From Betaproteobacteria bacterium (GTDB lineage: Bacteria > Pseudomonadota > Gammaproteobacteria > Burkholderiales > Rhodocyclaceae): a DNA stretch of 64,000 bases. Below are positions 5,111 to 63,380 of the stretch, one piece after another. The notes below the pieces were generated by a model that was not told where the DNA came from, ran no database searches, and worked only from the letters and a program-made list of their open reading frames with translations. Every line of letters begins with the position of its first letter. The stretch's first letter is position 1. The stretch is from positions 1-64,000 of the forward strand of contig WQZF01000003.1 of the NCBI GenBank assembly GCA_009780885.1. Direction: 5' to 3'. Both the position numbers and the translations under genes were made by a program.

Positions 5111-6904
5111 ATGAGCAGCGAAAAAAACGTTTCATCCGTCAATTTCATCCGCAACATCATCGATGCCGATCTCGGCGCCGGGAAATATGCCGCGCGCCAT
5201 TGGTCGGGGCAACCCGGGCCAGGGCCGCAGCAGTGTGCCGGACGGGTCGACCCTGCGCCGGTCCGCACGCGCTTTCCGCCGGAGCCGAACGGCTATCTGC
5301 ATTTCGGCCACGCCAAGTCGATCTGCCTCAATTTCGGACTCGCGCGCGATTACGGCGGGCGTTGCCACCTGCGTTTCGACGATACCAACCCGGAGAAGGA
5401 AGAGGACGAATATGTCCGCTCGATCATCGCGGCGGTGCGCTGGCTCGGCTTTTCGTGGGACGAAGGCGGCGAGGACAATCTCTACTACGCTTCCGATTAT
5501 TTCGACTGGATGATCGAATTCGCCGAAACGCTGATCCGCACCGGTCATGCCTACGTCGATAGCCAGTCCGCCGAGGAAATGCGCAGGAGCCGGGGCACCC
5601 TCACCGAACCCGGCCTCGCCAGCCCTTTCCGCGAGCGGAGCGCCGAGGAAAACCTCGCGCTCTTTCGCGCGATGCAGGCGGGCGAGTACCCGGACGGCGC
5701 GCATGTGCTGCGGGCGAAAATCGACATGGCCGCGCCGAACCTGAACCTGCGCGACCCAGCGATTTTCCGCATCCGCCACGCGCATCACCATCGCACCGGC
5801 GACCGTTTCTGCGTCTACCCGATGTACACCTTCGCGCACCCGATCGAGGACGCGCTGGAGAACATCACGCATTCGATCTGCACCCTCGAATTCGAGGATC
5901 AGCGCCCGTTCTACGACTGGCTGCTGGAGAGGCTTGCCGAGAGCGGGCTGTTGCAGCGCCCGCTGCCGCAGCAGATCGAATTCTCGCGGCTCAACCTGAC
6001 TTATGTCGTGCTCTCCAAGCGCAAACTTATCCAGTTGATCGAAGAAAGGCGCGTGGCCGGATGGGACGATCCGCGCCTGCCGACGCTCGCCGGCGCGCGG
6101 CGGCGCGGCTACCCGCCGGAAGGCTTTCATCTCTTTGCCGAGCGCATCGGCGTCTCCAAATCCGATTCCTTGATCGACATTTCGATCCTTGAGGAATGTA
6201 TGCGCGAAACCCTGAACGAACGCGCCGAGCGCCGCATCGCCGTGCTCGATCCACTCCGCCTCATCATCAGCAACTATCCCGAAGGACAAACCGAACTCTG
6301 CCAGGCGCCGAACCATCCGCTGAAACCCGAACTGGGCAAGCGCGACATCCCGTTCTCGCGCGAACTGTGGATCGAGCGCGAGGACTTCATGGAAACGCCG
6401 CCCAAGGGCTACCACCGCCTTTATCCCGGAAACCGGGCGCGCTTGCGCTACGGCTACGTCGTCGAATGCACCGGCTGCGTCAAGGATGAAAACGGTAACG
6501 TGACGGCCGTGCTCTGCGAATACCTTCCGGATTCCAGATCGGGCACGCCGGGCGCCGACAACTACAAGGTCAAGGGCAACCTGCATTGGGTCAGCGCCGC
6601 GCACGCCTGTGCCGCCGAAGTGCGCCTTTACGACCGTCTCTTCGCCGTTCCCGCGCCGGGCGCGCGGCGCGAAGGCGATCCCGAAGGAATCGAACGCGAT
6701 TTCCTCGACGACATCAATCCGGATTCGCTCAGCCTCATCACCGCCCAGCTCGAACCCTCGCTCTCCGAGGCCGCGCATGGAGCCTCGTTCCAGTTCGAGC
6801 GCCACGGCTATTTCGCCGCCGACGCCGTCGATTCCAGGCCCGGAGCGCCGGTCTTCAACCGCACCGTGACCCTGAAGGATTCGTGGGGCAAGGGAGGGAA
6901 ATGA
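5111..6904 (+). CDS. glnS: Glutaminyl-tRNA synthetase
   Basis: 597 residues, class I synthetase charging tRNA-Gln. The HIGH motif is in [16 protein letters not shown] and the KMSKS equivalent in VVLSKRKL. The start [21 protein letters not shown] agrees with the family N-terminus; longer upstream in-frame sequence overlaps crcB antisense and is not conserved in style. Divergent from the crcB operon. Its stop overlaps the start of pyrF (ATGATG around 6901), implying translational coupling. Confidence 0.96.
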
Positions 6905-18098: not shown

Positions 18099-18175
18099 AG
18101 GCGCGTAGCTCAGTTGGTTAGAGCATCACCTTGACATGGTGGGGGTCGTTGGTTCGAATCCAATCGCGCCTACCA
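18099..18175 (+). tRNA. tRNA-Val (GAC)
   Basis: 77 nt with acceptor AGGCGCG/CGCGCCT, discriminator A and encoded CCA. Anticodon loop TTGACAT gives anticodon GAC (valine GUC codons). T-arm GTTGG-TTCGAAT-CCAAT. Its 3' end is the prophage integration site; the intact gene is restored by the prophage copy of the last 27 bases. Confidence 0.97.
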
Positions 18176-18220
18176 GAATTTCCCTTTAAAATCATACAAT
18201 CAAGAACAACAGATTTTTTC
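18149..18220. other. Attachment site, tRNA side (attL)
   Basis: 72 bp identical to 63309-63380. It starts in the T-arm of tRNA-Val and ends inside the last codons of the integrase gene, whose stop lies at 18200. Confidence 0.95.
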
Positions 18221-19396
18221 TGGGGAAGTTCTGGGGAAGAATTCCGGTTTTTTGCTGGCTTCTTCCATCTTCTTTTTTTCCGTTCCCTTATCCGCGCCGT
18301 CGATCCAGCGCGCGTATTTTTCAAACAACATCCGGGTGTTGGTGTGCCCAAGTTGCCGGGCAATGTAGGCGGGATTGACGCCGGCCATCAGGCCGATGGT
18401 GGCGTAGGTGTGCCGGCAGCAGTACGGGCGGCGGTAGCGGATGCCAAGGCGCTTGAGCGCCGGTTTCCAGTAATGATCCCTCTGGCTGCGCTCATCGTGC
18501 CAGGGGCGTCCGGTGACGGGGTTCTCGAAGACGTATCCATCGGCGTCCTTCAGGAAGGTGTGCGGGCGCATCCATTTGAGGGCTTCCAGGGCGGCCTGGA
18601 CGAGGTCGATGTCCCGAACCGTGTGGGTTTTCGATCCGTCGCGCTCTGAGCCCCTGAAGGTGCGCACGCGCCCGATCCGCGCCATGTTCGATTTGAAGTC
18701 GATGTCGGACCAGCGCAGGGCAATGATTTCTTCCGGGCGCATTCCGGTGAAGAAGGCGAAGCTGAAATAGGCGAGGATTCGAGGGTCGTAGTGCCGCGCG
18801 AGGTCGTCGAGGATAAGGTCTCGTTCCTGGGCGGTGAGGGGATCGGGCAGCTTTTTGACGGCCTGGAGGTTCTTGATGCCGGTCATGGGGTTGTCTGCCG
18901 CGCGTCGCCCGGTGTATTCGAGGGCAAGGATGCCGCGCAGGACGATCAGGTAGTTGTTGGCGCTTTTGGCAGAGGCCCAGGGGTGCCCGCCAATGAGGGC
19001 GGCGAGGTTTTGATAGCTGAGGGTTTCGGTCAGGGTTCGTTCGCCGATGAGTCGCTTCCAGAGCAGTACGGCGTTTTTGTATTGGTCTTTGGTGGCGGCT
19101 TGCAGTTGGCCCTTGGTTTTGAGCCAGGTGTCGGCGATGGCGCCGAAGGTTTTTTTGGGGGCAGGGGGCTTTTTCCGGGTGTCCGGAAAGGTGGCGGTGT
19201 AGTCGAAGATGCCGAGGGCGATTTCGCGCCGGATTTCGGCAGCCAGGCGATGCGCGAGCTTGAGGTTTGCCGGGTTGGGCAACAGGGGCTTGCCGTTGAT
19301 CTTGAGGGTTTCCCTGCACGCGGAGCCGTCGGCATCAACAAAGTGGAGCCGGATGCTGGCGGGTCGAATTTCTACTCCTGGTCCGTTTCTTCCCAT
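18200..19396 (-). CDS. int: Tyrosine-type site-specific integrase
   Basis: 398 residues. N-terminal arm-binding domain (DUF3596-like, ~1-75), SAM-like core-binding domain (~85-175) and a catalytic domain. Active-site residues visible: Arg in TGMRPEEII, Arg-His in YCCRHTYAT (the usual first His of HxxR is Tyr here), His in LGHTNTRM and the nucleophile Tyr in FEKYARWI. The gene points into the tRNA and its last codons form part of the attachment site. It overlaps the excisionase-like gene by 62 bp and is the last gene of the leftward operon. Confidence 0.96.
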   Translation of the reverse strand: MGRNGPGVEIRPASIRLHFVDADGSACRETLKINGKPLLPNPANLKLAHRLAAEIRREIALGIFDYTATFPDTRKKPPAPKKTFGAIADTWLKTKGQLQAATKDQYKNAVLLWKRLIGERTLTETLSYQNLAALIGGHPWASAKSANNYLIVLRGILALEYTGRRAADNPMTGIKNLQAVKKLPDPLTAQERDLILDDLARHYDPRILAYFSFAFFTGMRPEEIIALRWSDIDFKSNMARIGRVRTFRGSERDGSKTHTVRDIDLVQAALEALKWMRPHTFLKDADGYVFENPVTGRPWHDERSQRDHYWKPALKRLGIRYRRPYCCRHTYATIGLMAGVNPAYIARQLGHTNTRMLFEKYARWIDGADKGTEKKKMEEASKKPEFFPRTSPEKICCS

Positions 19397-32517: not shown

Positions 32518-32879
32518 TCGCTTACTGGGACGCCTGGCTGAACCGCTGGGCGCAATGGAAAGAAAGGGAACGGCGCGGCGAGTGCGGCTGGTACAAGGTC
32601 TCCCCGTCCTTCCGGAACGCGCGCAGCTCGGGCGAGTATCTCAGGCCCGGCACGCCGGAACTCGACGAGCAGGCCCTCTTCGTCGATCAATGCGTCCAGC
32701 GCCTGGCCCTCACCGACCTGAAAACGATCCTCGCCTTCTACGTGTGGGAAAAAACCGCCGCCAGCGCCGCGTTGAAGCTGGGAATGTCAAAGCGCGCCCT
32801 GTACCTGCGCCTCGACCGCATCCACCAGGAACTCCGGAAACACGAACAGGAATTCAACGATGAACGCCGCTGCGATTGA
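32514..32879 (+). CDS. HTH protein, candidate late-gene activator
   Basis: 121 residues. The C-terminal half 'TDLKTILAFYVWEKTAASAALKLGMSKRALYLRLDRIHQELRKHE' is a sigma-70 region 4/FIS-like helix-turn-helix, as in phage late regulators (RinA/Q-like position). Last gene of the rightward early operon, before the packaging genes. Confidence 0.65.
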   Translation: MIAYWDAWLNRWAQWKERERRGECGWYKVSPSFRNARSSGEYLRPGTPELDEQALFVDQCVQRLALTDLKTILAFYVWEKTAASAALKLGMSKRALYLRLDRIHQELRKHEQEFNDERRCD

Positions 32880-32927
32880 CGCCGCCCACTGCGGCAATCG
32901 CCACGGCATTGCCCCCGCCCCGGCGGC

Positions 32928-33212
32928 TTACAAGCGCCCGGCAAGCCGCAGGGAAGCGCGCAACATATCGTTGATGCGCGTCTGCCAGCCGTCGCCCGCC
33001 TCGCGCAACGCCGCCAGCACATCAGGATCAAGCCTGAGCTTGACGGGCTGTTTGGTGGCGCGGGCCTTGGGGCGGCCAATGCGCATCACCGGCATGGCTT
33101 TCCATTGTTCATCGGACAATGGGAGCGCGTCAGGATCGGACAAGGCGGCGGCCGTGATGGCGGCATCTTCCTCGTCGGTGGGCAGAAGGGTTCCGGGTTT
33201 AAGTTTCGGCAT
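32928..33212 (-). CDS. brnA: BrnA-family antitoxin
   Basis: 94 residues. 'GRPKARATKQPVKLRLDPDVLAALREAGDGWQTRINDMLRASL' is the BrnA RHH domain that binds its own promoter; the N-terminal 'DEEDAAITAAALSDPDALPLSDEQWKAM' wraps the toxin. Overlaps brnT by 14 bp, toxin first. Confidence 0.9.
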   Translation of the reverse strand: MPKLKPGTLLPTDEEDAAITAAALSDPDALPLSDEQWKAMPVMRIGRPKARATKQPVKLRLDPDVLAALREAGDGWQTRINDMLRASLRLAGRL

Positions 33213-33468
33213 AACTTTTGGCCTCACTTCTTGTGGCGCGGCGCAGGCTGATGACGCGGCAGGCGTCGTTGCGTTCGACGAAGGCCATGCAGAACAAGCG
33301 CGCTCCGATGTATCCCAGCGCAATCATGCGCTCTTCGCCGTAATCTTCCCGCGTGTCCATACGCACACGGGCGCTGTCCCATTCGAACCCTTTGGCCTCG
33401 GTCAGGGAAACCCCGTGTTTGGCAATGTTCAAGGCATCCTTGGCAGGGTCGAATTCGATCAACATCAT
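33199..33468 (-). CDS. brnT: BrnT-family ribonuclease toxin
   Basis: 89 residues from the ATG at 33468. 'IEFDPAKDALNIAKHGVSLTEAKGFEWDSA...REDYGEERMIALGYIGARLFCMAFVERNDACRVISLRRATRSEAKSYA' is diagnostic BrnT (RelE-fold RNase that stops translation). The module sits between early and packaging genes and may stabilise the prophage. Confidence 0.92.
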   Translation of the reverse strand: MMLIEFDPAKDALNIAKHGVSLTEAKGFEWDSARVRMDTREDYGEERMIALGYIGARLFCMAFVERNDACRVISLRRATRSEAKSYAET

Positions 33469-33569
33469 ACTTATTGTACCCCCAATAAGTCGAAAAAACA
33501 AACCGCCATTGACCCCGCCGCGCAACCGGGCTATGCTCTTGCCGTCACGGAAAAAAACGTGACCGGGTT

Positions 33570-34115
33570 TTGGTTATGCAAAAAAAATTCAAATATAACG
33601 AAGTTCTTAGCGAACTTATCAACCGATTCCCGTTCTGTTTCAGCCAAAATCCAAGGCAAGTTGTTCCACTCGGAACAAATACACTCTCAGAAATTTCCCG
33701 CGTGCTTGGCATTGAAGGCGAGCAGCTTGAGCCGTATCGCCTTGCGCTTAAAGACTATAAGCGCAGTTCTGCCTATCTCACAGCCTTGGCTCTTGGAAAA
33801 AAGCGACGCACCCTCTGGGGAGAAAAATTCCCGGCTCATATCACGCCACTCGACCGCGAACAGGCACGATCAGAATTACAACGGCGTGGCGTATGGTCAG
33901 AAACGCTTGAACATATCTACCGAAGTAAAATCGGGCATTTCGTGCAGCTCGAAAAAAACAGCCCAAGCAGCCGGACGCACAGAGAACGATTCCGGCGATG
34001 GATTGAACGGCTGCAAGCAGCCGGATTCACCGAAGACGATATCCGCCGGATTCAATCAGAGGGTATCCAGACCGACGATCTGGAAGAAACTCGCCGCCTG
34101 CTCGACAGTATTTGA
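33570..34115 (+). CDS. ProQ/FinO-domain RNA chaperone
   Basis: 181 residues (MQKKF at 33576 is an alternative start). Residues ~10-110 carry the FinO/ProQ fold: 'LINRFPFCF...PLGTNTLSEIS...YRLALKDYKRSSAYLTALALGKKRRTLWGE', then a charged helical C-terminal part. Family members bind structured 3' ends of small RNAs and mRNAs. A phage-borne copy could act on phage or host small RNAs. Confidence 0.85.
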   Translation: MVMQKKFKYNEVLSELINRFPFCFSQNPRQVVPLGTNTLSEISRVLGIEGEQLEPYRLALKDYKRSSAYLTALALGKKRRTLWGEKFPAHITPLDREQARSELQRRGVWSETLEHIYRSKIGHFVQLEKNSPSSRTHRERFRRWIERLQAAGFTEDDIRRIQSEGIQTDDLEETRRLLDSI

Positions 34116-34170
34116 CATCCCTCCGGGTAGTGGGTACAGTGCGTTCAAGGGGTGTGATAGCTCCGACGAA

Positions 34171-34213
34171 CAGCGGTATCCGCGCCCGACAGCATCGCGG
34201 TTTTTTTGCGTCC
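34171..34213 (+). promoter_or_regulatory. Conserved leader element upstream of KilA-N gene 1
   Basis: Contains CGCGCCCGACAGC and GCGGTTTTTTTGCGTCC. The same block, GCGCCCGA-AGC-N-GCGGTTTTTTTGCGTCC, precedes the second KilA-N gene on the minus strand at 62145-62186, and CCCGCAAGGG follows in both. The T7 tract after GCGG suggests a terminator or attenuator in a long leader RNA. Confidence 0.6.
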
Positions 34214-34368
34214 GGCTTCTCAATGGCCGGGAGGACGGCGGATACAACACCCCGCAAGGGGGAAGAAGCCTACCCGGCTGTTCACGGGCTATCAACCTCC
34301 TGGCCACCTCGCGGGGGCGTGTGATAGCGGCCCTGCGAGATTTTCAAGTCTCGAACAGGAGCTGCAAC

Positions 34369-34986
34369 ATGAACGCACTCGCCCTCATCACGGTCGATCA
34401 GACCGCCATCCGTCAACACGACGGCCTTTATTCCCTGAACGATCTGCACCGCGCCGCCGGTGGCGAAGAAAAAAACCGCCCGAATCAGTTTCTGCGCATC
34501 GACCAGACGTGGGCGCTGATCAACGAGATTTCAAATGCGCATATCTGCGCAATTAAGACCCAGCGCGGCGCAGGAGGCGGTACTTATGCCTGCCGGGAAC
34601 TGGTCATCGCCTACGCCGCGTGGATTTCCCCGGCCTTTCACCTGAAAGTGCTGCGGGTCTTTCTCGATCAGCTTTCCGCGCACCGGCAACGCCGCTTGCC
34701 GCTGCCGCCGCTCCCCTCGCTGGAGATGCCTTCCCTGCCGCCGCCACTGCCCGCCGTGGTACTGACCGAAACCGAAGCCTTCAATCTCTACGGGCTGCTG
34801 ACGATGATCAAGTATTTCTATGAGCGCACGGAAATCATCGAGCAAGGACTGAAAACCCTGGGATCATCGTTCGCGCCGCTCTTCTTCGACGCGCGAAACG
34901 AACCCATGTTCAGATGCTGCGCGCTCAAGGCGCTGCGCGACCGCTGCGAACCGCACTATCGAAGAAACGAACCTCGGGCGAGATAA
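34369..34986 (+). CDS. KilA-N domain protein, copy 1
   Basis: 205 residues. N-terminal KilA-N domain (LYSLNDLHRAAGGEEKNRPNQFLRI...GGTYACRELVIAYAAWISPAFHLKVLRVF, ~1-105), a Pro/Leu-rich linker, and a C-terminal domain 'FNLYGLLTMIKYFYERTEIIEQGLKTLGSSFAPLFFDARNEPMFRCCALKALRDRC'. KilA-N proteins often act as antirepressors. Closely related to the 61325-61975 product; the N- and C-terminal blocks are almost identical, the linker differs. Confidence 0.88.
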   Translation: MNALALITVDQTAIRQHDGLYSLNDLHRAAGGEEKNRPNQFLRIDQTWALINEISNAHICAIKTQRGAGGGTYACRELVIAYAAWISPAFHLKVLRVFLDQLSAHRQRRLPLPPLPSLEMPSLPPPLPAVVLTETEAFNLYGLLTMIKYFYERTEIIEQGLKTLGSSFAPLFFDARNEPMFRCCALKALRDRCEPHYRRNEPRAR

Positions 34987-59820: not shown

Positions 59821-60183
59821 ATGCCCGGAAAAGACCCGCGAGAATGGACACTCGGCGCATGGCTGCTGGCTTTACTTCCGTCGGCCAGCGCCGGCATCGT
59901 GAATTGGCTCGGCCATTACGTTACTGGCGATAAGAGGCACTTCAGCTTCCTGTATTTCTGCATCGAAGTCTTCACCTCCGGATTCGTGGGGGTCACGATG
60001 TTCATGGCCTTTGCGGCGCACGATCAGCCCCCTGCGATGTGCGCCGCCGTCGCCGGGGTCTCCGGACACATGGGAACACGCCTCTTGCTGCTGCTCGAAC
60101 TGGCGCTCGAAAACAAGATCAAGGCGTACTTTGCGAACCGGAAAGACGCCCACGATGGAGAAAATCACAATGATCACCCCTGA
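59821..60183 (+). CDS. Phage holin
   Basis: 120 residues, three hydrophobic segments (~11-27, ~41-65, ~70-95) with charged ends, matching the class I holin family. Upstream of and overlapping the endolysin by 29 bp. Confidence 0.75.
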   Translation: MPGKDPREWTLGAWLLALLPSASAGIVNWLGHYVTGDKRHFSFLYFCIEVFTSGFVGVTMFMAFAAHDQPPAMCAAVAGVSGHMGTRLLLLLELALENKIKAYFANRKDAHDGENHNDHP

Positions 60184-60826
60184 ACTGCTGGTGGCCGCCG
60201 GCACCGGCGTGACCGCCGTCGATGCCCGGATCAGCGCCGAATTCCTTGGCGAAGCGGCAGTCATCGCGGCCATCAACACGCCGCGCCGGGTGGCCTGCTT
60301 CCTTGGGCAACTCGGGCACGAATGCCCGCGCTTCCGATCCACGCACGAAGACCTGCACTATTCGGCTGACCGGCTCCGCAACGTTTGGCCCAGGCATTTC
60401 CCGGATCAATACATCGCCGAAGCCTACGCCTTCTCCCCGGTCAAGATCGGCAACCGCGCCTACGCCAACCGGATGGGCAATGGCGACGAAGCCAGCGGCG
60501 ACGGCTACCGCTTCCGGGGGCGCGGGTATCTGCAACTCACCGGACGCGAGAACTACGCCGCCGCGAGCGCCGCGCTCTTCGGCGACGCCCGGCTGCTCGA
60601 TGCGCCTGATCTGGCCATTGAGCCCGAAACCGCCGCTAGGGTGGCGGCATGGTTCTGGACACGGTCCAACTGCAACGCGCTCGCCGATGCGCTGGCGTTG
60701 TCCGCCATTACCCGCGCCATCAACGGCGGAATGAACGGCTACGACGACCGGGCCGAACGAACGGCCCGCGTCCTGAAGCTGCTCGATCCACACGCCGCTG
60801 CCTGCGGCGTTTTTTTCACCTCATGA
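60155..60826 (+). CDS. Glycoside hydrolase family 19 endolysin
   Basis: 223 residues (start at 60170 possible). Catalytic Glu in FLGQLGHECPRF, then 'EDLHYSADRLRNVWPRHFP' and 'GDGYRFRGRGYLQLTGRENYAAAS'. Cuts peptidoglycan; no signal peptide, so it needs a holin. Confidence 0.93.
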   Translation: MEKITMITPELLVAAGTGVTAVDARISAEFLGEAAVIAAINTPRRVACFLGQLGHECPRFRSTHEDLHYSADRLRNVWPRHFPDQYIAEAYAFSPVKIGNRAYANRMGNGDEASGDGYRFRGRGYLQLTGRENYAAASAALFGDARLLDAPDLAIEPETAARVAAWFWTRSNCNALADALALSAITRAINGGMNGYDDRAERTARVLKLLDPHAAACGVFFTS

Positions 60827-60839
60827 AGGGAGAAGCCCC

Positions 60840-61271
60840 ATGCTGCAAAAAATACTCGCTCTTTTCGCGCTGTTTCGTGCCGGCAACGAGGTCGCCGATC
60901 CGGCCAAATGGAAAAGCCACCAAATCACGGCCAACCTGCTGGGAGGCGTCATCATCGCCGCCGCCAACGTCGCCGCCGTCTTCGGCCATGTCTTGCCGAT
61001 TGACCAGGATGCCGCGAATGTCCTGGCGGCGGGTGTGCTGGCTGTGGTTAATGTGGTGCTTACTCTCATCACCAGCGCTCGCATCGGATTGCCGCCTGCG
61101 AGCAACACCGACCCTGCCGACCCCGGCGCAGACCTGGGGAGCAACCCAGCAAGCCTGGCGGGAGGATCAGCAAGCCCCGCGCCTGAGCCTCAAGCCGGAA
61201 CCCCCGGCGCTTCCCCCCGTCCCCTCGACACGGCCCGCGCCACCGGCATCGACACCACGCGCCTGGGCTGA
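60840..61271 (+). CDS. Membrane protein of lysis cassette
   Basis: 143 residues. Two hydrophobic segments (~30-50 and ~58-82), then a Pro/Ala/Ser/Gly-rich tail. May be a second holin or a Rz-like protein. The tail overlaps another frame that could encode an Rz1-like protein. Confidence 0.6.
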   Translation: MLQKILALFALFRAGNEVADPAKWKSHQITANLLGGVIIAAANVAAVFGHVLPIDQDAANVLAAGVLAVVNVVLTLITSARIGLPPASNTDPADPGADLGSNPASLAGGSASPAPEPQAGTPGASPRPLDTARATGIDTTRLG

Positions 61272-61324: not shown

Positions 61325-61975
61325 TCAGACCCCTTTCGTCAGAGCTTCGATTTTTCGATAGTACGGTTCGCAGCGGTCGCGCAGCGCCTTGAGCGCGCAG
61401 CACCGGAACATGGGTTCGTTCCGCGCGTCGAAGAAAAGCGGCGCGAACGATGATCCAAGGATGCGCAAGCCTTGCTCGATGATTTCCAGGCGCTCATTGA
61501 AATACGGGATCATCGTCAGCAGCCCGTAGAGATTGACCGCTTCGGCTTCGGTCAGCACCACGGCGGGCGGTAGCAGCACTGGACAGTTATCGGAGATGGC
61601 TGTCCGTACCGCTTCGGTGATCGCGCCAGAGAGACCCTTGCCGATCCGGGAAACTTTCCGGGGCGCGGCAAGCTGATCGAGAAAGACCCGCAGCACTTTC
61701 AGGTGAAAGGCCGGGGAAATCCACGCGGCGTAGGCGATGACCAGTTCCCGGCAGGCATAAGTACCGCCTCCCGCGCCGCGCTGGACTTGAAATGCAGGAA
61801 TTCCTGCATTTGAAATTTCTTCAGCCAGCGCCTGCGTTTGAGCGTTGCTGAGAAACAAGGACGGTCGGTTTTTTGGTTCACCGCCGCTGGCGCGGTGCAG
61901 GTCATTGAGGGAATAGAGTCCGTCGGATTGACGGATGGCGGTTTTGTCGACCGTGATGAGGGCGAGCGCGTTCAT
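61325..61975 (-). CDS. KilA-N domain protein, copy 2
   Basis: 216 residues, closely related to 34369-34986: same N-terminal 'MNALALITVD-TAIRQ-DGLYSLNDLHRA-GGE-KNRP' and same C-terminal 'RILGSSFAPLFFDARNEPMFRCCALKALRDRCEPYYRK'. The middle differs (RIGKGLSGAITEAVRTAISDN). Faces the late operon and would be antisense to lysis readthrough. Confidence 0.88.
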   Translation of the reverse strand: MNALALITVDKTAIRQSDGLYSLNDLHRASGGEPKNRPSLFLSNAQTQALAEEISNAGIPAFQVQRGAGGGTYACRELVIAYAAWISPAFHLKVLRVFLDQLAAPRKVSRIGKGLSGAITEAVRTAISDNCPVLLPPAVVLTEAEAVNLYGLLTMIPYFNERLEIIEQGLRILGSSFAPLFFDARNEPMFRCCALKALRDRCEPYYRKIEALTKGV

Positions 61976-62144
61976 GGTGAAGCTCCTTATGGCATTTGTT
62001 CAAGAATTGCCCCCTGTTCAGAGGGGCGTCCAGGTACTTGAACACCGCCATAAGTCGGCCCGATGCCTTAGCCCTTGCGGGCTGTTTTTCGGCAGTCGCG
62101 CTACCCGGACATTAAAACCATATCGCCGCCACTACGCAGCGTCT

Positions 62145-62313: not shown

Positions 62314-62475
62314 ATGGATTCTAGCAAGTTCCTGGAAATACTGGAGATGCCGATGAAAAACGCCAGCGAAAAATATCCGCTTGCCACGCTGATCATTCTT
62401 TGCGCCTCTGTCGTCTTGTTTATTTCGGTGTGGCGCTTGCCTGAAATCATTAGCGCGCTGGCGCTTTGGAGATAG
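62314..62475 (+). CDS. 53-residue membrane peptide
   Basis: MDSSKFLEILEMPMKNASEKYPLATLIILCASVVLFISVWRLPEIISAL...; one membrane helix (~22-40). GGAAG ribosome-binding site. No family recognised. Confidence 0.6.
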   Translation: MDSSKFLEILEMPMKNASEKYPLATLIILCASVVLFISVWRLPEIISALALWR

Positions 62476-62477
62476 GA

Positions 62478-62597
62478 ATGCCTGCCATCAAAGTGATTGA
62501 AAACTGCAACAAGGCCCGGCGCTTGCTCTATACCGCGCTGGCCGTTGTCTCCCTCTGGGGGATTACCGCCCTGATCCACGCTATCCGCTGGTGGTAA
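62478..62597 (+). CDS. 39-residue membrane peptide
   Basis: MPAIKVIENCNKARRLLYTALAVVSLWGITALIHAIRWW; one membrane helix (~17-34), basic juxtamembrane region. TAGGA just upstream, 2 bp after the previous stop. Confidence 0.55.
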   Translation: MPAIKVIENCNKARRLLYTALAVVSLWGITALIHAIRWW

Positions 62598-62620
62598 GGA
62601 TGCAGCGCGGATTTTAACCA

Positions 62621-62640
62621 CCGCCCTCGGGCGGTTTTTT
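62621..62640 (+). terminator. Intrinsic terminator ahead of the CRISPR-like repeat
   Basis: CCGCCC-TC-GGGCGG followed by TTTTTT. Confidence 0.85.
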
Positions 62641-62643
62641 AAT

Positions 62644-62675
62644 GTCGCGCCCATCGCGGGCGCGTGGATTGAAAC
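62644..62675 (+). CRISPR. Solitary type I-C-like CRISPR repeat
   Basis: 32 nt beginning GTCGCGCCCATCGCGGGCGC and ending with the 3' part TGGATTGAAAC. Stem CGCGCCC (62646-62652) / GGGCGCG (62658-62664), loop ATCGC, and an 11-nt tail as the Cas5d-generated 5' handle. Length, stem and tail match type I-C repeats. No second copy or cas gene in the window, so it is not an array. It stands 3 nt after a terminator and 25 nt before the ATG of the next gene. Confidence 0.8.
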
Positions 62676-62700
62676 AAGCAAACCCTGAAAGGAACGAAAA

Positions 62701-62958
62701 ATGAAATTCATCGAAACTGCCAAAACCCTGCTGCTGATCCTCCCTTCGCTCATCGAGGCGATCCGTGCCGTCGAAAACCTGTTCCCGGAATCCGGCCAGG
62801 GCGCGGCAAAACTCGCCATGGTGCGCGCCATGATTTCCGCCGCCTGGGAACGCGCCACCGACATCACCGGCCTCTTCGAGTCGGCCTGGCCGTCCATCGA
62901 AAGCGCGATCAACGGGATCGTCTCCGTCTTCAACTCGTTCGGCTGGTTCAAGAAATGA
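62701..62958 (+). CDS. 85-residue phage protein downstream of CRISPR-like repeat
   Basis: 'MKFIETAKTLLLILPSLIEAIRAVENLFPESGQGAAKLAMVRAMISAAWERATDITGLFESAWPSIESAINGIVSVFNSFGWFKK'-type protein; N-terminal amphipathic/hydrophobic helix and small C-terminal hydrophobic end. Similar small proteins occur near lysis genes of other prophages (recollection). AAAGGAA ribosome-binding site. Function unknown. Confidence 0.7.
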   Translation: MKFIETAKTLLLILPSLIEAIRAVENLFPESGQGAAKLAMVRAMISAAWERATDITGLFESAWPSIESAINGIVSVFNSFGWFKK

Positions 62959-63107
62959 GCGGCAGGGTAGTCCCCTTCGACCGGGCGCGCGCGCTGCAAT
63001 TGAGGCGCTCGCGCTCCCTCGCCGCGTCTCTTATCAACGCTTTTGGCGTCTGCTGGATAATGTGCGCCGCCGCCTGGTGGAGATACCTGAGCGGCGGGAA
63101 GGGTTAA
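62955..63107 (+). CDS. 50-residue membrane peptide
   Basis: MSGRVVPFDRARALQLRRSRSLAASLINAF... with one membrane segment (~24-42) after a basic N-terminus. Start overlaps the previous stop (ATGA), so translationally coupled. Confidence 0.6.
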   Translation: MSGRVVPFDRARALQLRRSRSLAASLINAFGVCWIMCAAAWWRYLSGGKG

Positions 63108-63308: not shown

Positions 63309-63380
63309 TTGGTTCGAATCCAATCGCGCCTACCAGAATTTCCCTTTAAAATCATACAATCAAGAACAACAGATTTTTTC
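63309..63380. other. Attachment site, distal side (attR)
   Basis: 72-bp copy of 18149-18220, including the last 27 bases of tRNA-Val without the rest of the tRNA. Confidence 0.95.

Follow-up and report, generated by a model that had tools for sequence, protein, structure and literature searches.

Solitary CRISPR repeats carried by viruses have been shown to act as RNA anti-CRISPRs (Racrs), and one of the tested cases is of type I-C (PMC10651486). In the I-F case, Cas6f and Cas7f are captured by the Racr (PMC10651486). Cas5d of type I-C systems cuts the precursor RNA, which gives an 11-nt 5′ handle, and remains attached to the hairpin (PMC5965380). A matching CRISPR subtype in the hosts is usual for the Racr class (83% of cases with a CRISPR-positive host) without being strictly defining. 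The closest described systems are RacrIC1, a solitary I-C repeat in a prophage of Bifidobacterium pseudocatenulatum that is co-directional with a small gene, and RacrIF1, a solitary repeat between genes of a Thiocystis violascens prophage (PMC10651486). The solitary type I-C repeat analyzed here, GTCGCGCCCATCGCGGGCGCGTGGATTGAAAC, occupies positions 62644–62675 (+) of the window, which is the whole 64,000-nt stretch of DNA under analysis, and shares with each of the two the features just named for it. RacrIC1, however, lies 11 nt downstream of acrIC5 and is co-transcribed with it, whereas the window repeat is located upstream of a holin-linked gene and behind a terminator, and is a candidate only. 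RacrIF1 belongs to type I-F and is processed by Cas6f, and a strong promoter of its own drives its expression as a small RNA, whereas no such promoter is evident at the window repeat. The promoter-repeat layout described for the Racr class also differs from that of the window, where a terminator is found directly upstream of the repeat and none downstream. By analogy with this class, the window repeat is a candidate Racr, a solitary I-C repeat of a temperate phage that would act as a decoy RNA; we assign this reading a probability of roughly 0.6. The repeat may already be included in the published catalogue of solitary repeats (PMC10651486).

The repeat and its prophage

The 32-nt sequence consists of 2 unpaired bases, the arms of a 7-bp stem (62646–62652 and 62658–62664) enclosing a 5-nt loop (62653–62657, ATCGC), and an 11-nt handle (62665–62675, TGGATTGAAAC). 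Folded alone, the 32-mer adopts this 7-bp stem and 5-nt loop at −14.7 kcal/mol, and genuine I-C repeats fold alike; in sequence and in fold it thus has the stem-loop followed by an 11-nt handle that characterizes a Cas5d substrate. Searching the 64-kb window at up to 3 mismatches to a real same-family I-C repeat returned a single match, compared with none in 100 shuffles, which excludes a chance origin. No second copy at up to 3 mismatches was found across the draft genome (2.63 Mb, 117 contigs, 99% complete), and near the repeat there is no other stretch with 9 or fewer mismatches outside the loop, no partial repeat, and no array remnant. Being single, the repeat does not constitute a type I-C array, which has at least two repeats with spacers. 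An initial reading made from the sequence alone (the sequence-only reading) had described a lone 32-nt repeat at this position, and its account of the 7-bp stem and tail is borne out, with the repeat being the sole genome copy at this threshold. An opposite-strand 277-aa ORF overlaps the repeat, but it overlaps several sense ORFs too, is without support, and was treated as a shadow frame.

SRUFinder (PMC10651486) recognizes a solitary repeat by identity of 90% or more to a known repeat across no less than 90% of its length, by the lack of any full or partial repeat within 100 bp, by intergenic location, and by carriage on a virus or plasmid. The window repeat is identical at 32/32 positions to a Helicobacteraceae array and at 31/32 to two same-family arrays, has no full or partial repeat within 100 bp, and is located between a 39-aa and an 85-aa ORF. 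It is carried by a 45-kb temperate prophage in tRNA-Val that is complete by gene content, encoding an integrase (18200–19396, −), primase/helicase, terminase, portal, protease, major head protein, tape measure, tail protein, and endolysin. The left attachment sequence (18149–18220, +) overlaps the 3′ end of tRNA-Val (18099–18175) and is identical over 72 bp to the right attachment sequence (63309–63380, +); the repeat is positioned ∼0.6 kb inside the right attachment site, in the sense orientation relative to the late genes. The prophage is also present among the viral contigs of IMG/VR (UViG 2820103659_000001, 44,759 bp), where a comparison of 10,797 bp showed no difference from the window, and no close phage or plasmid relatives were found in INPHARED or PLSDB.

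Search for type I-C systems in the host and its relatives

A search of 84,980 species genomes for the exact 32-mer located it in two places. In a Helicobacteraceae MAG (JAITRJ010000004.1), 19 identical copies, the same as the window repeat in all 32 bases, form a genuine array; in contrast to the window copy, these repeats are separated by spacers, the bacterium is unrelated, and none of the spacers matches the prophage. In Lysobacteraceae, the exact 32-mer is one variant copy in a long array whose usual repeat differs at one loop base. When no more than 2 mismatches outside the loop are allowed, 17 of 398 other genomes of the host family contain a match, mostly in large arrays. The cas5d-adjacent family arrays share stem and handle with the window copy and depart from it only in the loop, at one base (G536, G568) or three bases (G033, G048, G557, G509); unlike the window copy, these arrays contain many repeats, most of them near cas5d, and belong to other genera. 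The exact array match and the restriction of the family differences to the loop therefore identify the window sequence as a bona fide I-C repeat of the type used by the host's relatives, in full agreement with the type I-C identity proposed in the sequence-only reading. That reading had also proposed a comparison with the repeats of the host and its relatives, and close I-C matches were found in relatives and none elsewhere in the host genome. The elements that Cas5d is known to need, stem and handle, are all kept in the window repeat while the loop differs.

The genes cas1, cas5d, and cas8c/Csd1 were not detected in the host draft genome (117 contigs, 99% complete), so that the previously noted absence of cas genes nearby holds genome-wide for these three genes in the draft. 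The matching subtype usual for hosts of the Racr class is not found in this genome; same-family relatives do have I-C, Cas5d matches being present in 46 of 200 same-family genomes, 45 of which exceed the curated cut-off. Given the lack of a detectable I-C system here, any benefit of the repeat would come on infecting I-C-positive relatives or strains, and the repeat may have more to do with the phage's host range than with its life in this lysogen. Comparison of 909 spacers from cas5d-linked family arrays with the prophage gave no convincing match, only short ones of 14–19 nt; these numbered ∼48 rows versus 29 on the reversed-window control, yet none was longer or stronger. These family spacers thus provide no direct sign of I-C targeting of the prophage. 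Orphan I-C-like repeats were also observed in two same-family genomes (L218, position 1501; L210, position 163), with changed handle ends (GAAGC), and the L218 copy is flanked by ordinary cellular genes.

Surroundings of the repeat and competing explanations

The repeat is preceded by an endolysin gene of glycoside hydrolase 19 type (60011–60826, +; the TTG at 60011 may precede the true start), a holin-like gene with a weak PHROG holin match (60840–61271, +), an opposite-strand KilA-N domain gene (61325–61975, −), and two tiny ORFs of 53 aa (62314–62475, +) and 39 aa (62478–62597, +; 43 aa from the TTG at 62466), each having a hydrophobic stretch and no convincing family match. An intrinsic terminator follows (62620–62640, +), comprising an ACCGCCC-TCGG-type hairpin with its stem at 62620–62635 and a run of six T that ends 3 nt before the repeat; the sequence-only reading had likewise placed a terminator ahead of the repeat. 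Downstream are the 85-aa ORF (62701–62958, +), a 50-aa ORF that overlaps its end (62955–63107, +; hydrophobic stretch, no family match), and the attachment sequence. The end of the repeat is separated by 25 nt from the 85-aa start codon, with a ribosome-binding site between. Upon Cas5d cleavage the handle would be followed by a putative pseudo-spacer (62676–62710, +) that is unique in the window and includes the ribosome-binding site and start codon of the 85-aa gene.

Several features count against the Racr reading. No consensus sigma-70 promoter was found within 45 nt upstream of the repeat (score 6 of 12.5, below the control mean), a terminator stands directly upstream of it and none was found downstream, and folding indicates that an upstream U tract is able to pair with the handle in a longer transcript. 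The lack of a detectable I-C system in this genome, of a convincing family spacer against the prophage, and of a repeat beside relatives of the 85-aa gene weighs in the same direction. Since no terminator follows the repeat, its transcript is probably not a free-standing small RNA but continues into the 85-aa/50-aa mRNA as the leader, and with no promoter just upstream the repeat RNA may exist only in that form. In an I-C-positive cell, Cas5d would bind RNA across 62644–62675 and cleave it beyond the stem; the handle and the attached 85-aa leader would then hold Cas5d, Cas7, and Cas8 in useless complexes, and fewer of these proteins would be left for real crRNAs.

Relatives of the 85-aa protein with ∼27–47% identity occur in six IMG/VR contigs, six same-family genomes, and one same-class genome, mostly right behind a relative of the holin-like gene, and the 85-aa protein is more likely to serve in lysis or another late function than as an anti-CRISPR. 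All four tiny ORFs that had been proposed as possible anti-CRISPRs are present, but such a role is unsupported, as the 85-aa gene tracks the holin in other phages and searches with the other three gave no convincing family match. Near the repeat, no known acr gene was recognized. In the stretches fetched around the 13 loci with relatives of the 85-aa gene (L033, L035, L039–L043, L229–L234), no I-C-like repeat lies beside the gene, a comparison of presence or absence at large distance only, no close phage relative having been found. The same block upstream of the same gene, which the sequence-only reading had suggested looking for, is thus missing throughout; at the distances available a conserved repeat block is ruled out, and this result argues against conserved leader control. 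The interval between the holin and 85-aa genes, which in the window contains the KilA-N gene, two tiny ORFs, and the repeat, holds little or nothing in holin-bearing relatives, so that the repeat looks lineage-specific and acquired in an accessory spot.

Solitary I-C repeats in viruses were collected by scanning IMG/VR with the pattern GTCGCNCCCNNNNNGGGNGCGTGGATTGAAAC, which yielded 57 solitary occurrences including the window copy, or 53 after removal of near-duplicates. These repeats avoid genes, with 16/53 in long ORFs versus 80% of random positions. As a group, their upstream sequence resembles a promoter slightly more than that of nearby control positions does, and a terminator-like hairpin is found within 100 nt downstream of 8 of at most 68 of them versus a control value of ∼4%. 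The window copy exhibits neither trend and is alone among these viral solitary I-C repeats in having a terminator-like hairpin directly upstream. Several other viral copies precede start codons by 11–40 nt. Leader placement among intergenic repeats is nominally enriched (6/24 versus 8.6%) in a set inspected beforehand and is seen in 0/8 of an independent set, and it is not claimed as a rule for viral I-C repeats.

The window repeat might instead be a neutral relic, an intact repeat recently gained by recombination with an array of a former I-C host and having no function. Such an origin would fit the present host without a detectable I-C system, the lack of an evident promoter before the repeat, the lack of a repeat beside relatives of the 85-aa gene, and the occurrence of orphan I-C-like repeats in same-family chromosomes (L218). 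Nevertheless, all stem and handle bases are intact, whereas the chromosomal orphans have altered handle ends (GAAGC), neither a flanking duplication nor an array remnant is present, and the intergenic, sense placement is that expected of a selected element, leaving a neutral origin rather unlikely, if still a serious contender. The sequence-only reading had envisaged a relic of off-target spacer acquisition, for which no positive support emerged, the repeat having neither a flanking duplication nor a second copy. The same reading had raised a regulatory role, with a Cas5d site in the leader coupling expression of the 85-aa gene to host Cas levels. Cas5d binding or cutting there would alter how the 85-aa/50-aa mRNA is translated or how stable it is, and late expression would thereby answer to host I-C. 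The short, ribosome-binding-site-containing distance to the start codon is compatible with this role, as are the viral copies 11–40 nt ahead of start codons and the nominal enrichment of leader placement; however, the enriched set was inspected before the test, the enrichment was not repeated (0/8) in the independent set, and the repeat is absent at 13 loci with 85-aa relatives. Cas5d-responsive control is accordingly weakened as a conserved feature and is improbable for the window repeat.

Viral mini-arrays directed against related viruses are known (PMC11656645), and Cas5d cleavage of RNA from the window repeat would leave a handle plus guide, which might be used as a crRNA whose guide (62676–62710) targets rival phages that have the same 85-aa leader but not the repeat. 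With no second repeat to define the 3′ end, and no similar stretch found in the phage and plasmid records of INPHARED and PLSDB, use as a crRNA is very improbable indeed. A long shot is a dual-purpose leader in the holin-linked late-gene mRNA, in which cutting by Cas5d and assembly of the effector over the start codon would drain I-C proteins and at the same time tie a late function to host I-C. The RNA anti-CRISPR reading, likewise put forward from the sequence alone, is the best of these explanations, although the argument proceeds from class membership and no I-C system is detectable in the lysogen itself. The list of RNA anti-CRISPR candidates that merit testing thereby gains a well-formed I-C member, and its position, with a terminator before it and a late gene after it, would permit a direct test of decoys working as mRNA leaders.

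Other solitary repeats and the KilA-N modules

Flanking duplications among viral solitary I-C repeats were found only at L072 (35 bp) and L104 (7 bp). No target duplication flanks the window repeat, and its origin as an insertion with such a duplication is rejected. The L072 repeat (position 5724, reverse strand) is located inside what appears by eye to be a transposase gene, and its 35-bp direct duplication, which has one mismatch, could reflect recombination between a protospacer and an array spacer, or an assembly artefact of the same shape. Some viral contigs carry two or three dispersed solitary I-C repeats (L060 and L062 on 3300031673_000079; L068 and L099 on 3300032156_001598). L077 and L114 have promoter-like sequence before the repeat in common (TTGACA, 18 nt, TATGGT) and different sequence after it. 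At L148 (position 1048), L149 (position 3958), and L155 (position 2889), a GAGGAG ribosome-binding-like site precedes the solitary I-C repeat and an ATG follows 4 nt past it, as if the repeat had been inserted into the translation start region.

The Rfam element sRNA-Xcc1 occurs twice in the window, at 62020–62110 (−), in the leader of the KilA-N gene near the repeat, and at 34225–34313 (+), and also at L238, L239, L244, and L247, in the leader of KilA-N phage genes. In phages with related KilA-N genes (L241, L242, L246, L248, L249, L253, L262), the same leader position is taken by C4 antisense RNA, and sRNA-Xcc1, instead of being a stand-alone sRNA, may control a phage antirepressor as a C4-like antisense RNA. 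The second KilA-N/sRNA-Xcc1 module of the prophage (32860–34986) encodes a protein ∼73% identical to the 61325–61975 copy, and its KilA-N part is read in continuation of a 708-aa open frame extending across the RNA element.
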